Shown here: piece after piece, positions 5,743-10,997 of the stretch
Numbering within the stretch: position 1 is the stretch's first letter
Layout of the letters: each line of letters starts with the position of its first letter
Assembly (NCBI GenBank): GCA_021414105.1
Contig: JAIOPB010000059.1
Span: 1-41,760, forward strand
Reading direction: 5' to 3'
DNA: 41,760 nt
Source of the DNA: Nitrosarchaeum sp.
GTDB lineage: Archaea; Thermoproteota; Nitrososphaeria; Nitrososphaerales; Nitrosopumilaceae
The notes under the pieces: generated by a model
Told to the model about the DNA's origin: nothing
What the model saw: only the letters and a program-made list of their open reading frames with translations
Databases searched by the model: none
Translations under genes and position numbers: made by a program

Positions 5743-5887
5743 TCTAAGATCTAAAAATCTTTATAAATTTTTATTTTTTTGTACATTTGCAATATTACAA
5801 TAACATCTAAATTTTATTTTAATGAGAAAACTGATCTAATAACAATCTAGTCATAAGTCTTATTTACTCCTTTTTTAGTGAAATAGT

Positions 5888-7981
5888 ATGGAATTAGATG
5901 AAGAACTAGAAGAGCCAAAGCGAAGCGGAATTCTTCAATCTACATCAAAACGTGTACGAATGATCTTCTCTGTAATGGCAAGTCCAAACCGAATAGATAT
6001 TCTAAGAATTTTAAATTCAAAGGGCCCATTAACCTATTCTGAATTAAAGTCACTAGCAGGATTCAAATCCAAAAAAGAGAGTGGTAAATTTGCATATCAT
6101 CTAAGAAAATTATTGAGGCAATCCCTTGTAGCACTAAATAAATCTGAAAGACGTTATACAATTACAAATCTTGGAAAACTTGTCTTAAGCTTGGCAAGAC
6201 AAATTGAAGAACGTTCAATTATTGAAAGTGGAAAGATGTATGTTAGGACATCACATGAATCAATTGAAGAATTCAATTCACATAAAATTATTCAATCACT
6301 TGTACGTGAAGGTAGTCTTCCATTGGAATTAGCTCAAAAAATTACTGAAGAAGTTGAAAATAGAATTTACAAATATCAAACAACCTATCTTACTGGGTCA
6401 CTTATCAGAGAAATGGTAAACTCTGTTCTTTTAGAACACGGTCATGAGGAATACCGCAATAAACTAGCACGCCTAGGCCTGCCTGTATATGACATTCAAG
6501 AAATGCTCACAAATCTGGATAATGTAGATAATGGCGCAGAAGGCCTACTTTTCAATACTGGTCAGAAAGTGTTTGCAGAACATTTACTTACAAATGTATT
6601 ACCAAAAGATGTTGCTGATTCACATCTTTCTGGTGATATGCACATTTCAAATCCAGGAATTTGGTCAATGATACCTGATACCATATTTGTTAATGTAAAA
6701 GAACTGATTGAAGATGGAGTTATTCTTGGTGGAAAATATCTTGATGTATCAAGAATTACATCTTCAAAATCAATTGATGATATTGCATCTTCCTTGTCTA
6801 TAATCATATCATTACTTTCCAAAGAAGCTTCGCAAGAAATTGTACTTGACGGATTGATTCCACTCTTTACAAAATATTCAAAGAACATTCCAGAACTTGA
6901 ACAAAAACTAACAGATGCCTTTGCTACTGCATCTACCACATCCAAATACAATAGAAAAGCTACTAATGTTTCAATTAGACTTCAGTTAGGTTCTGATCTA
7001 AAAATTGTTAATGCAATAATTAATGCATACAAGAATTACACAAAGATAACTCCAATTCCAAAAATTGGTTTGATTGTAGATTTCGATAAAGGAAAAGTTG
7101 CTGATGTTTCCGAAGCATTAGCAGAAATAATTTCAATTGGTGGAAAAGTGATGTTTGCAAAAGGTGAAGTATCTAGTTATGGTATCACAAATGGTACAAC
7201 TAAAAATTCTGGCCCACTTGCAATAACACTACAATCTGTTTCAATCAATCTTCCAAGACTTGCATTTGAATCCAATAAAGATGAAACATACTTTAGAGCA
7301 AGACTTGCATTACTTATGAAACCTGCATTATCTTCTATGGCATTAAGAAAGAAAGATATTTCTGATCTTACTAGAAGAGGATTAAATCCAATTCTTGCAA
7401 AGAATACACAATATATGCAACGAAGTTCTGTGTCACTTATTGTTAATCTCGTAGGCCTAAAGGAATCTGTTTTCAATATTCTTGGATTCCAAGATAATAA
7501 AGAAGGAAGAGAGATACTCAATAAAGTAATAGAGACTGCAGTTGATGTTGCAGCTAAAAAAGGTAAAGAACTAGGAGATACCGTGGCTATATCCATGACT
7601 GAGACTGAGGGATCCAGCCGATTTGCAAACCTAGATGGTGAGAAATATGGTAAAAATTCGGCTCTTAGTTCTATGGATAGTGACTCTTACTCACAAGGAA
7701 TAGTTCTTAATGCCTCTGAAATAGGCGATTACACAAGTAAAACTGAGATTATATCTGAATGTAATAAACTATCTAAACTGCTTAATGGTGGTTTACTAGT
7801 CAGACTTGATATTGATCAGAACGCCACTCAAATTGATATCAAAAAATCAATTGAAAAAGCAGCAGAACTAACATCTTCATTCAAGCCTGTAAAGAAAGTA
7901 GCACTATGTGGTGAATGTGGGTTCAAAGATGAACACTTTGTAGACAAGTGTCCAAAGTGTAAGTCTTCATACGTAATCTGA
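5888..7981 (+). CDS. Winged-helix + ATP-cone + inactive NrdD-like protein (candidate nucleotide-sensing regulator)
   Basis: This 697-residue protein combines three modules. Residues 20-110 form an ArsR-like winged helix (SPNRIDILRILNSKGPLTY, then a wing ending at GKLVLSLA). Residues about 117-205 are an ATP-cone (YVRTSHESIEEFNSHKI ... GHEEYRNKLARLG). From about 215 on, the sequence resembles anaerobic ribonucleotide reductase NrdD (HLLTNVLPKDVADSHLSGDM at 232-251), ending in a C-terminal zinc ribbon with Cys674, 677, 688 and 691. The usual IHD after GD is changed to ISN, the only non-ribbon cysteine is one near residue 626, and the protein stops just after the ribbon, where the glycyl-radical segment should be. 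It therefore cannot be a working NrdD. Position directly upstream of nrdJ suggests a dATP/ATP-responsive regulator, an analogue of bacterial NrdR; this is inference. Confidence 0.85.
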   Translation: MELDEELEEPKRSGILQSTSKRVRMIFSVMASPNRIDILRILNSKGPLTYSELKSLAGFKSKKESGKFAYHLRKLLRQSLVALNKSERRYTITNLGKLVLSLARQIEERSIIESGKMYVRTSHESIEEFNSHKIIQSLVREGSLPLELAQKITEEVENRIYKYQTTYLTGSLIREMVNSVLLEHGHEEYRNKLARLGLPVYDIQEMLTNLDNVDNGAEGLLFNTGQKVFAEHLLTNVLPKDVADSHLSGDMHISNPGIWSMIPDTIFVNVKELIEDGVILGGKYLDVSRITSSKSIDDIASSLSIIISLLSKEASQEIVLDGLIPLFTKYSKNIPELEQKLTDAFATASTTSKYNRKATNVSIRLQLGSDLKIVNAIINAYKNYTKITPIPKIGLIVDFDKGKVADVSEALAEIISIGGKVMFAKGEVSSYGITNGTTKNSGPLAITLQSVSINLPRLAFESNKDETYFRARLALLMKPALSSMALRKKDISDLTRRGLNPILAKNTQYMQRSSVSLIVNLVGLKESVFNILGFQDNKEGREILNKVIETAVDVAAKKGKELGDTVAISMTETEGSSRFANLDGEKYGKNSALSSMDSDSYSQGIVLNASEIGDYTSKTEIISECNKLSKLLNGGLLVRLDIDQNATQIDIKKSIEKAAELTSSFKPVKKVALCGECGFKDEHFVDKCPKCKSSYVI

Positions 7982-8005
7982 AATTCGTAAATCAAAAACT
8001 ATCTC

Positions 8006-8033
8006 CGATCATTTTAGAAAATATTTTGATCAG
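8006..8033. promoter_or_regulatory. Weak third copy of the CGATCAT ... TTTGATCAG element
   Basis: CGATCAT (8006-8012) and TTTGATCAG (8025-8033) are the same two half-sites that mark the ends of the 41-bp repeats downstream, here separated by 12 rather than 19 bases. The element lies 24 bases after the stop of the NrdD-like regulator. The intervening bases do not match the other copies. Confidence 0.45.
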
Positions 8034-8040
8034 TTTCAGA

Positions 8041-8081
8041 CATACGATCATAGTTCTGAATCTATGACTATTTGATCAGAA
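8041..8081 (+). repeat. nrdJ upstream direct repeat, copy A
   Basis: This is the first copy of a 41-bp direct repeat in the spacer before nrdJ; 34 of 41 positions match copy B, which starts exactly 150 bases later. The conserved ends are CGATCAT (8045-8051) and TTTGATCAGAA (8071-8081), with CTGAA and ATGACT conserved between them. GATCA and TGATC are inverted, so each copy is also a dyad. TCATAG (8049-8054 region) and CTATGA can form an inner 6-bp stem in this copy. The layout suggests a repeated protein-binding operator. Confidence 0.7.
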
Positions 8082-8190
8082 CGGTTCTCGCTAAGTTAGT
8101 GACTATATTGACTTCTTTAAGTGTCTATATACAAGATCATAAACAGTATGAGCTAACAAAAATTCACTAATGGTTGTGCTGTAAATTTTT

Positions 8191-8231
8191 CATGCGATCA
8201 TCGCACTGAATTCATGACTGTTTGATCAGAA
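8191..8231 (+). repeat. nrdJ upstream direct repeat, copy B
   Basis: This is the second copy of the 41-bp repeat, from CATGCGATCAT to TTTGATCAGAA. Differences from copy A cluster in the middle (positions 12, 14, 15, 22 and 23 of the repeat) plus positions 4 and 30, while both half-sites are identical. It ends about 70 bases upstream of the putative TATA element of nrdJ. The inner stem of copy A is not kept intact here, which favours DNA recognition over an RNA fold. Confidence 0.7.
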
Positions 8232-8274
8232 AAACCATTACAACATCAATTGGACCGTTGTCAATATTTTTGAA

Positions 8275-8286
8275 CTGAAATTTCAG
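8275..8286. promoter_or_regulatory. Perfect 12-bp palindrome CTGAAATTTCAG before nrdJ
   Basis: CTGAAATTTCAG is a perfect dyad located 16 bases upstream of the TATA-like ATTTATAC at 8303-8310. Its position, just outside the basal promoter, is where archaeal activators or BRE-proximal repressors bind. Its CTGAA half also occurs in the centre of both 41-bp repeats. Confidence 0.5.
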
Positions 8287-8302
8287 AAAATACTGCCAAA
8301 TC

Positions 8303-8338
8303 ATTTATACCGTATTCTTTCTTACCTCTTGCGGGGAG
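8303..8338 (+). promoter_or_regulatory. nrdJ TATA-like element and Shine-Dalgarno sequence
   Basis: ATTTATAC at 8303-8310 is a plausible archaeal TATA box. GGGGAG at 8333-8338 lies seven bases before the TTG start at 8346 and is a good Shine-Dalgarno match. Most genes in this window lack such a site, so the leadered TTG start of nrdJ stands out and supports the chosen start. Confidence 0.55.
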
Positions 8339-8345
8339 ATTATAA

Positions 8346-10997
8346 TTGGATAAATCACAAATAGAAAGTACTCTCAATGAGATCCGTAAGCGCAGTGGCG
8401 CTGTAACGGCTTTCAATCAAGATAAAATTTCAAACGCTATATTCAGAGCGTTGGCAGCCACCTCTAAAGCCGACCGTGCGCTAGCCGATCAACTTGCAAA
8501 TAAAGTCGTGCAAAAATTAGTCGAACAAGGATTCACAAGTTCTAGAACTCCTACCGTTGAGGATATTCAAGATATTGTGGAATCAACCCTTATCGATTGT
8601 GGTAACAGCGACATTGCAAAGGCGTATATCGTTTACAGACATGAACGAAGAAAATTAAGAGACGAAAAAATGAAAGTCTTAAACACAAAATCTTTAGATA
8701 CTGTCTCAAAGAATTTTGATCTAAATTGCTTGAGGGTACTAGCATCTAGATATCTTTTCAGAAATAGTAAAAACGAAATCACTGAATCTCCAACTCAAAT
8801 GTTTGAAAGAGTAGCAATTCTAGTTGGAATTGGCGATATTCTATATGATGCCCAAGTATTTGATAAATCTGGAAATATTACTCAAAATATTGAAGAGGCA
8901 CGTACATATCTTGAGAAATTAGACAATTTTGATTACAAATTCAAGATTGGAGAATACTTTCTCAACAAGTGGCACTTTAGATCTTTAATCAACCACTATG
9001 TAACGCTTGCAAACAAAGGCCAGATGAAAGTCAACTTTAAAGATCTTCTGACACTACTTGCAGCCAAAAAATTTGATAACTATGCAGACAAGATCACAGA
9101 ATATTTTGAATTGATGACTGCACAAGATTTCCTGCCAAATTCACCAACAATGATGAATGCTGGTGGTAGATTGGGTCAGCTTTCTGCATGTTTTGTTCTT
9201 GGTATGCCCGATGATATGGAACAAATCATGAAATCAACTTCTGATGCAGCACTAATTTTCAAATCTGGAGGAGGAGTTGGAATCAACTATTCTGATCTTC
9301 GTGAAGAAGGCGATATTGTTGCATCAACATCTGGTGTAGCATCAGGTCCAGTATCTTTTATGAATATAATCAATACCGTAACTGAAGTTGTAAAACAAGG
9401 CGGAAAAAGAAGAGGAGCTAACATGGGAATCATTGAAGCTTGGCATCCTGATGTTGAAAAATTCATTACAAATAAAACAGAGCCTGGTGTATTGGAGAAC
9501 TTTAATGTCAGTGTAGGCATATGGGAAGACTTTTGGAATGCACTTGTAAACACAGATGACGGCAAGTACATGTTACGTAGTCCACGTGACAGAAAACCTG
9601 TAAGAGAAATCAACGCACATCAATTAATTGATTTGATAGCTATGTCTGCATGGAAGAGTGCAGAGCCTGGATTGATCTTCTTTGATCAAATTAACAAATA
9701 CAATGTATTTGCCAAAGCAAGACAATCTCCACTAAGAGCTACAAATCCATGTGGCGAACAGAGTCTATATCCATACGAATCATGCAATCTCGGTTCCATC
9801 AATTTGGTGAATCTTGTAAAAAGAAAGGCTGATGGAGAATACGAGTTTGATTGGCAAAGATACGAAGAAACAATCAGAAAGACAACCAGATTCTTGGATA
9901 ACATCATTGATGTGAATCATTATCCTGTAAAAGATATTGACATTGCATCTAAAGATTCTAGAAGAATTGGCTTGGGTGTAATGGGAGTCGCAGATCTCTT
10001 ATACAAATTAAAAATCCCATACAACTCCAAGGAAGGTTATGAACTACAATCAAAACTATCTGAAGCATTGACCTATTATTCAATGGAGGAAAGTGTTGCA
10101 CTTGCAAAATCTAGAGGTGAATTCCCACTTTGCTCAAAGACAGAATATCCAGAAGGAAAAATTCCAATTGCAGGATATTATGAGAAACCTAAAGAATCGC
10201 ATTGCTATGAATGGGATGCACTAATTGAGAAAATTAAGAAGCATGGAATAAGAAATGTCTTGACTACTACAGTAGCTCCAACCGGAACATTATCTATGAT
10301 TGCTGATTGCTCAAATGGAATGGAACCCGCATTTGCTTTAGTATTTGAAAAGAGAGTAACTGTAGGCAGATTCTTCTATACCAACAAGATTGTTGAAGAA
10401 GTACTCAAAGAACATGGCCTATACAGCGATGAACTCCTTGCAAAGATTGCAGACAATTATGGATCTCTAAAAGGAATTCCTGAAATCCCACAATGGATGC
10501 AAGATGTCTTTGTCACTGCAATGGATATTCACTGGGCAGATCATCTAATGGCTCAAGGTGTATGGCAAGATTGGATAGGAAATGCAATTGCCAAGACAAT
10601 TAACATGCCATATGATGTTACTGCAGATGATGTAAAATCTGCATATCTATTAGCTCATGAGTTGGGATTAAAAGGAATCACAGTATATCGTGATGGTTCT
10701 AGACATAAGCAAGTACTACATATGACAAGTGAAAATGCACAAAAAACATTTGATGTTACACCAAGTGAATATGTTACTGGATATGTAACAACTATGATTT
10801 CCAATCCATACATCAAATCTCAAGTCCATAGTGCACTTGAACTCAAAGTACATGATGAAGAAATTACATCTGAGCCTATGAGACAAGAAGAAGTATCTGA
10901 AGATCGTCTATGTCCAACATGCAAAAACAATCTCGTATTTGTAGAAGGATGTAGTATCTGCATAGAATGTGGATTCAGCGGTTGCACTTCTGGATAA
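8346..10997 (+). CDS. nrdJ: Ribonucleotide reductase, class II (adenosylcobalamin-dependent)
   Basis: The enzyme converts ribonucleotides to deoxyribonucleotides using AdoCbl to generate a thiyl radical, so it works with or without oxygen. The 883-residue protein has an N-terminal ATP-cone (about 15-105) for allosteric control, a first redox cysteine at Cys282 in LSACFVL, the active-site NPCGE motif (Asn467, Cys469, Glu471), and a Cys-rich C-terminal tail (Cys856, 859, 869, 872, 875 and 880) combining metal binding and redox relay, as is usual for NrdJ. The TTG start has a GGGGAG ribosome site. The upstream spacer holds a 41-bp direct repeat and palindromes. Cobalamin genes at the end of this window would supply the cofactor. 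Confidence 0.97.
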   Translation: MDKSQIESTLNEIRKRSGAVTAFNQDKISNAIFRALAATSKADRALADQLANKVVQKLVEQGFTSSRTPTVEDIQDIVESTLIDCGNSDIAKAYIVYRHERRKLRDEKMKVLNTKSLDTVSKNFDLNCLRVLASRYLFRNSKNEITESPTQMFERVAILVGIGDILYDAQVFDKSGNITQNIEEARTYLEKLDNFDYKFKIGEYFLNKWHFRSLINHYVTLANKGQMKVNFKDLLTLLAAKKFDNYADKITEYFELMTAQDFLPNSPTMMNAGGRLGQLSACFVLGMPDDMEQIMKSTSDAALIFKSGGGVGINYSDLREEGDIVASTSGVASGPVSFMNIINTVTEVVKQGGKRRGANMGIIEAWHPDVEKFITNKTEPGVLENFNVSVGIWEDFWNALVNTDDGKYMLRSPRDRKPVREINAHQLIDLIAMSAWKSAEPGLIFFDQINKYNVFAKARQSPLRATNPCGEQSLYPYESCNLGSINLVNLVKRKADGEYEFDWQRYEETIRKTTRFLDNIIDVNHYPVKDIDIASKDSRRIGLGVMGVADLLYKLKIPYNSKEGYELQSKLSEALTYYSMEESVALAKSRGEFPLCSKTEYPEGKIPIAGYYEKPKESHCYEWDALIEKIKKHGIRNVLTTTVAPTGTLSMIADCSNGMEPAFALVFEKRVTVGRFFYTNKIVEEVLKEHGLYSDELLAKIADNYGSLKGIPEIPQWMQDVFVTAMDIHWADHLMAQGVWQDWIGNAIAKTINMPYDVTADDVKSAYLLAHELGLKGITVYRDGSRHKQVLHMTSENAQKTFDVTPSEYVTGYVTTMISNPYIKSQVHSALELKVHDEEITSEPMRQEEVSEDRLCPTCKNNLVFVEGCSICIECGFSGCTSG

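Follow-up and report, generated by a model that had tools for sequence, protein, structure and literature searches.

A candidate regulator of ribonucleotide reductase genes in archaea, built on an inactive class III reductase

In bacteria, NrdR represses the genes of ribonucleotide reductase. It is a protein of about 150 amino acids in which a DNA-binding zinc ribbon is joined to an ATP-cone (excerpt of PMC9110341), and it is called rare in archaea in excerpts of two papers (PMC9110341, PMC12176259). A protein of 697 residues is encoded in the window, by which the whole analysed stretch of 41,760 nucleotides from Nitrosarchaeum sp. is meant. It resembles NrdR in its ATP-cone, in the position of its gene beside ribonucleotide reductase (RNR) genes and in candidate sites that lie in helical phase; by analogy, it would be expected to read ATP and dATP and to act at RNR promoters. 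Unlike NrdR, whose DNA-binding zinc ribbon is N-terminal, it begins with a winged helix as the putative DNA binder, it carries a complete, dead NrdD body, and its zinc site, at the C terminus, is that of the enzyme. With the class III reductase NrdD (PF13597, TIGR02487) it shares the fold, the ATP-cone before the body and the C-terminal zinc site, but it lacks the catalytic cysteines and the glycyl-radical tail and has the winged helix in addition. The winged helix is of the HTH_20 type and may be like that of ArsR/SmtB regulators, although the PDB matches, to an ArsR protein and to SmtB, are weak (E 0.27); unlike in these regulators, the sensor part consists of an ATP-cone and NrdD.

Helix-turn-helix (HTH) domains fused to enzyme-derived sensors are found in MocR/GabR, ROK, BirA and NadR, and the 697-residue protein has the same combination of parts. 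We know of none among these that uses a ribonucleotide reductase. A search of titles and beginnings of abstracts in open-licence papers found no paper describing such a protein. Regulators with an enzyme-fold sensor and regulators of RNR genes are both known kinds, and the construction from a dead NrdD would be a new variation on them. For the control of dNTP supply in archaea without NrdR, the protein provides a named candidate together with a candidate binding site in the group of the ammonia-oxidising archaea, where this control becomes testable. If the reading given below is true, it would show plainly how a central metabolic enzyme can become a regulator of its own kind, taking on a job that in bacteria belongs to the quite differently built NrdR.

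Architecture of the protein and its catalytic positions

The positions of all features are listed in Table 1. In the profile search of the protein, a DUF7347/HTH_20 winged helix was found within residues 26-100 (Pfam); HTH_20 was over its cut-off, and HTH_5 and HTH_metalloreg were under theirs. The ATP-cone at residues 117-189 matched PF03477 with 1.1e-8, above the cut-off, and the NRDD profile PF13597 matched with an E value of 1.9e-27. The score against TIGR02487 (NrdD, NCBIfam) was 86.5 bits at a cut-off of 326.35, which is far too low for a member but expected of a diverged NrdD relative. TIGR00244 (NrdR) was absent among the NCBIfam matches of the protein. The ATP-cone of NrdR begins with K-R-x-G, and this start is absent from the cone of the 697-residue protein, for which a search of the PDB by sequence gave no match.

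Table 1. Positions of the features of the locus in the window.
Feature	Position	Strand	Basis
Conserved stretch upstream of the gene, putatively its own promoter, TAGTCATAAGTCTTATTTA	5848..5866	+	aligned upstream regions of relatives; putative function
TATA-like part of the gene's own promoter stretch	5859-5866	+	aligned upstream regions of relatives
HTH, ATP-cone and inactive NrdD-like protein, 697 aa	5888..7981	+	ORF with ATG start; Pfam, NCBIfam, fold search
Winged helix, residues 21-104	5948..6199	+	Pfam DUF7347/HTH_20, helices and two-strand wing of the model, conservation
ATP-cone, residues 117-189	6236..6454	+	PF03477 (1.1e-8), DNA-level match
NrdD-like barrel body without catalytic cysteines, residues 215-672	6530..7903	+	Pfam, alignments, fold search
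NrdD-type zinc site CxxC...CxxC, residues 674-691	7907..7960	+	alignment, conservation; no glycyl-radical tail after it
41-nt direct repeat in the spacer, copy 1	8041..8081	+	sequence repeat
41-nt direct repeat in the spacer, copy 2	8191..8231	+	sequence repeat
Candidate operator TGTCAA-N5-TTGAAC	8259..8275	+	aligned nrdJ upstream regions; sole exact copy in the genome
TATA-like box of nrdJ	8304..8309	+	29 bp past the operator core
nrdJ, for a class II (adenosylcobalamin-dependent) ribonucleotide reductase of 883 aa that has an ATP-cone of its own	8346..10997	+	ORF, Pfam, NCBIfam

An AlphaFold2 model of the protein was calculated from 56 sequences (pLDDT 74.8, pTM 0.69) and compared with the PDB using Foldseek. 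The 36 best matches were all class III NrdD structures, the first being 9d3x_A with an E value of 6.7e-21, and the TM-scores by target of the class III NrdD matches were 0.50-0.65. These were followed, among the best 50 matches listed, by class I and class II reductases and one other glycyl-radical enzyme. According to the model, the body is a NrdD barrel, and the first-pass annotation, which a fold unrelated to NrdD would have refuted, stands on this point. At the N terminus, helices and a two-strand wing as in a winged helix were modelled with moderate confidence.

The protein contains exactly five cysteines, at residues 625, 674, 677, 688 and 691, of which the last four form the CxxC...CxxC ribbon. 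The chain stops six residues past the last ribbon cysteine, without a glycyl-radical tail. In the alignment, the window's protein has Ile in the column of the thiyl cysteine (finger loop) and Thr in the T4-C79-type column, both positions being those that we assign from T4 and E. coli NrdD. The genome has two NRDD matches, both inside this gene. The first-pass annotation had described, in one 697-residue chain, an ArsR-like winged helix, an ATP-cone and a NrdD-like body that carries a GDMHISNP motif and ends in a zinc ribbon, with the active-site cysteines and the glycyl-radical tail absent. The profile matches and the predicted fold bear out winged helix, cone and body, the motif is present, and both losses were found, residue 625 and the zinc site accounting for all cysteines of the body. 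The ribbon was correct as to its four cysteines but not as an extra domain, being the zinc site of NrdD itself.

Conservation was unevenly distributed along the protein. Measured as the average frequency of the commonest residue in alignment A1, it reached 0.96 over residues 50-75, the most conserved region, which lies in the winged helix; over the HTH it was 0.86, over the cone 0.79 and over body and ribbon about 0.5, all of these figures including near-identical rows of one family. A putative DNA-contact helix that is near-frozen across an order, together with a drifting body, is the pattern to be expected of a regulator whose operator stays constant. The four zinc cysteines are present in 56 of 56 rows of alignment A3 and are missing in the shortened copies L030 and L055, both of which are outside A3. 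The four zinc columns are also kept in six canonical NrdD rows, two of which have His at one position.

Linkage to nrdJ and the candidate operator

As had been noted at first pass, the gene is directly followed by nrdJ, which starts at 8346 on the same strand after a spacer of 364 nt (7982-8345) and matches TIGR02504 with 2.8e-217 (NCBIfam). A survey of relatives bore out this neighbourhood, whose lack of conservation would have refuted the first-pass reading, with nrdJ adjoining in 56 of 60 and in 76 of 80 loci (best 80 of 573) of two sets. In the first set, a match was present in 59 of the 61 genomes searched, giving 60 loci (L001-L060) with one genome in two pieces. In 56 of these nrdJ lies downstream on the same strand; in three (L052, L054, L059) the contig ends in the gene, and in the one exception, L055, the copy has diverged and is shortened, and the 1982 bases that follow it contain no nrdJ. 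The second set comprised the best 80 of 573 confirmed loci (from 595 stretches, with a query from the order). In 74 of these best 80 of 573, nrdJ is the next gene without an intervening ORF of at least 100 aa, and tblastn added L168 and L173 to give the 76 loci with nrdJ on the same strand, while the contigs of the remaining four (L146, L174, L180, L198) end at most 250 bases from the gene. The nrdJ genes at L202 and L219 are 99% identical to that of the window.

The adjoining nrdJ genes belong to several divergent types and are not one orthologous gene, their identity to the window's nrdJ going down to about 30%. An ATP-cone is present in the types of the window, L041 and L123; the types of L049, L044 and L144 gave no ATP-cone match and have a TSCPD domain instead. 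Long nrdJ ORFs of 1046-1157 aa were seen in L039, L046, L047 and L184, and in the first three of these the nrdJ matches fall into separate pieces, which suggests inserted elements such as inteins. In L036, from a one-contig genome (G018), the regulator gene is split over two overlapping matches with a stop, either by real decay or by a sequencing error. Two bacterial records with the archaeal locus (L167 and L213, the latter titled Phycisphaerales) are probably mis-binned contigs.

Alignment of the nrdJ upstream regions showed a footprint TGTNAA-N5-TTGA, found at 8259-8275 in the window. A stricter expression, GTCAA-N5/6-TT[ACG][AC][AC], was searched on either strand in the last 150 bases before nrdJ, spacers of less than 60 bases being excluded; the spacers had been inspected before the motif expressions were drawn up, and these are thus post hoc. 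In spacers from the best 80 of 573 loci, it matched in 20 of 32 with the window's nrdJ type, in 4 of 5 with the L123 type and in 17 of 23 with the L049 type, and in none of the nine L104-type and five L044-type spacers, whose start codons are uncertain. For the other nrdJ types, the start was placed by extrapolation from the ends of the BLAST matches, and some of these placements were wrong (L183, L187). In the first set the expression was present in 22 of 48 spacers and absent in 26. Shuffled spacers gave means of 0.04 to 0.61, with 5 in the highest single shuffle, and the element before nrdJ was far above the shuffles in three of five nrdJ types. With the expressions fixed, 20 further loci gave 11 matches of the stricter and 17 of the looser form (shuffle means of 0.17 and 0.66), at least two of these loci (L081, L098) looking the same as the already seen L207 and L208.

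The distance between element and TATA-like box was determined in 69 spacers, 32 of the window's type (from the best 80 of 573) and 37 of the first set. The core lay 50-130 bases before the start in 47 of the 69, and 45 of these 47 had a TATA-like box 15-50 bases further on, counts which, like those of the motif, are not independent because the two locus sets share genomes (e.g., L202 and L005). The distance from core to TATA-like box in these 45 was 29 in 31 spacers, 39 in five and 40 in nine, and nothing else occurred. As the 29 bp and the 39-40 bp classes are about one DNA turn apart and differ in the sequence between, phase seems to matter. Both forms of the element occur within one long spacer in L010 and L094 (542 and 567 nt), as if there were tandem nrdJ promoters. 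The direct repeat in the window's spacer (two copies, 83% identical) was set aside as an operator, since its 36-base core occurs only twice in the genome, both times in this one spacer.

Upstream of the regulator gene itself, the stricter expression matched in 23 of 44 basal loci (from the best 80 of 573; shuffle mean 0.4, maximum 2), four of the 23 matches being a perfect GTCAA-N6-TTGAC. Of these 23, 18 lie near the start and overlap a TATA-like stretch that may itself contribute to the match. In the first set, 8 of 59 loci had the expression at this promoter, and in the window's own family it was absent from the 150 bp before the gene, with the exception of L037. A one-mismatch search of the window's genome gave 12 matches compared to 21 for the control. 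A regulon based on genome-wide matches was rejected, because in 12 of 16 genomes the reversed control matched as often as the loose motif or more often.

Proposed function

The gene product is quite probably a transcription regulator of RNR genes, derived from a class III reductase that lost catalysis, which would act on nrdJ. What sequence comparison and the structure model show is the architecture, the absence of the catalytic residues, the NrdD fold, the linkage to nrdJ throughout the order and a conserved element in nrdJ promoters. On the best reading, and by analogy, it would be NrdR-like in its working but independently built, and not an NrdR. The winged helix, in a dimer held by the NrdD body, would bind the GTCAA/TTGAC-like element before nrdJ; in basal lineages it would also bind the one at the gene's own promoter. 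The ATP-cone, perhaps together with remaining nucleotide sites of NrdD, would read ATP versus dATP/dNTP and thereby change DNA binding, and nrdJ transcription would fall when dNTPs are plentiful. Sensing of ATP/dATP is the natural reading of the cone and is probably its role.

Repression is mildly preferred over activation as the sign of this control, because the element of the L049-type lineages is located close to the nrdJ start codon, about 45-60 bp before it, and the own-promoter element of the basal lineages is close to the gene start, within about 30 bp of the estimated position and over the TATA-like stretch. The window's family has the element ahead of the TATA-like box, a place that would also suit an activator. 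This is the usual position for archaeal activators, and a protein recruiting TBP/TFB from the upstream element at low dNTP levels would agree with the distances of 29 or 39-40 bp between element and TATA-like box, which are in helical phase. Such an activator at the nrdJ promoter is nevertheless rather unlikely, as the element positions in the L049-type lineages and at the gene's own promoter suit repression.

Alternatively, the protein could be a partner of NrdJ, a dead subunit controlling it via the ATP-cone, with an HTH that is only autoregulatory. The strict gene order on the same strand throughout the order would fit such a partner, which could also supply a cone to the L049-, L044- and L144-type NrdJ that gave no ATP-cone match. 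However, the NrdJ of the window has its own cone, and the strongest constraint is on the DNA-binding region and not on the body that would contact NrdJ. The linked nrdJ also differs in type while the regulator gene stays, and a partner-specific protein contact is therefore unlikely to explain the linkage. We consider a role as NrdJ subunit distinctly improbable. Linkage throughout the order despite the divergent nrdJ types favours control at the DNA level.

Relatives outside the order, NrdR and origin

NrdR was over the cut-off in 35 of 398 genomes of the phylum, which we take to be Thermoproteota of GTDB; 34 of these belong to family f25 and one to f57. None of the order's 74 genomes in this sample had NrdR over the cut-off, and the only one with any match (G114) reached 20.8 bits at a cut-off of 124.65. 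The genome of the window had no TIGR00244 match and contains three ATP-cone proteins, namely the 697-residue protein, NrdJ and an ORF of 273 aa (L063, 475-1296, minus strand), the remainder of which looks nuclease-like. The 273-aa ORF was rejected as an NrdR. NrdR and the dead NrdD occur together in the f25 genomes G180, G419 and G446 (L108, L107 and L111), which weakens a simple replacement of one by the other there. In these three genomes the dead NrdD gene lies beside an ATCase-like gene and not beside an RNR gene.

The family profile matched 262 of 398 phylum genomes at E <= 1e-10, a number that includes ordinary NrdD and partial matches and is not a count of the family; this sample and that searched for NrdR were taken as identical. 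Outside the order, 40 matches (L103-L142) were chosen by hand, 7 from the same class and 33 from other classes. All 40 loci encode HTH, cone and NrdD-like body in one ORF, with a shortened body in L141. The architecture is not limited to one archaeal lineage, as the first-pass annotation had assumed, and its occurrence in other classes means that the recruitment is older. The independent NrdR-like regulator made from a dead reductase, which the same annotation had proposed, is supported in part. It has in its favour the dead NrdD body, the linkage to nrdJ, the lack of NrdR over the cut-off in the order's genomes of the sample, the candidate operator and the conservation of the HTH; its assignment to a single lineage had to be given up. 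When viral contigs were scanned once for a viral origin or spread, the 69 pattern matches included no relative.

In the seven loci of the same class, nrdJ is adjacent only in L123, where it is convergent. In the 33 loci of other classes, BLAST with RNR references showed nrdD following on the same strand in four (L106, L116, L117, L135) and nrdJ in one (L104). In 11 of the 33 the convergent neighbour is an ATCase-like gene, and in two more such a gene lies beyond nrdD. Five of these 13 ATCase-like genes were checked and proved to be aspartate carbamoyltransferase, and L136 and L141 have ornithine carbamoyltransferase. Aspartate carbamoyltransferase, an enzyme of pyrimidine synthesis, is encoded convergently or one gene away in L103, L108, L116, L131 and L139, and a link of the regulator to pyrimidine supply in the other classes is possible. 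The protein could also be an ArsR-like regulator of other genes, left beside nrdJ from a former RNR cluster. The mostly non-RNR neighbours outside the order, including the 11 convergent ATCase-like genes, and the loose motif matches elsewhere in the genomes would agree with this, but the gene has been kept beside nrdJ throughout the order although the nrdJ type differs, and in the window's genome an exact copy of the element exists at nrdJ alone. Control of other genes is given as little probability as the role of NrdJ subunit.

The catalytic positions were compared in an alignment of 73 HTH-bearing rows (33 of the order and 40 from L103-L142) and 27 rows without a clear HTH from the same phylum. 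The T4-C79-type cysteine was present in none of the 73 HTH-bearing rows, a cysteine at the thiyl position in two (L112, L116; L141 has a gap there) and Gly in the glycyl column in three (L112, L119, L130; L104 has Gly one position further on), and no row had all three together. Both cysteines were present in 24 of the 27 rows without a clear HTH, and all 20 of those with a complete tail had the Gly. The glycyl domain is missing in the 33 HTH-bearing rows of the order. In the other classes a degenerate remnant of it is often left, which looks like an intermediate state in these alignments.

A tree of 71 rows based on the body only separated the 20 canonical NrdD sequences from the HTH-bearing rows by a branch with an SH-aLRT of 100. 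This was a quick tree, from which L141, truncated canonical rows, L238, L246 and L247 were left out; it is consistent with one origin but, given its long branches and uncertain root, is no proof of it. A tentative scenario, about as easily doubted as believed, is that a class III reductase became a transcription factor once, early in the phylum, by gaining a winged helix and losing catalysis, its cone and fold making a two-input ATP/dNTP sensor. Since then it would have stayed beside the RNR gene of its host, nrdD in some hosts and one of several types of nrdJ in the order of the ammonia oxidisers, in the place of NrdR.

An active class III reductase with unusual chemistry, to which the retained zinc site and barrel and the catalytic positions kept by a few relatives in other classes (two in L112, one each in L116, L119 and L130) might point, was rejected with near certainty, because the catalytic residues are missing: in the window's protein, residue 625 and the zinc site account for every cysteine of the body and the glycyl-radical domain is lacking, and with both NRDD matches of the genome in this gene no true NrdD was found that could complement it. 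The three rows L238, L246 and L247 are NrdD-like without catalytic cysteines and without a clear HTH, and are perhaps further lineages of dead NrdD. L246 may have an HTH, its profile match beginning at position 56.
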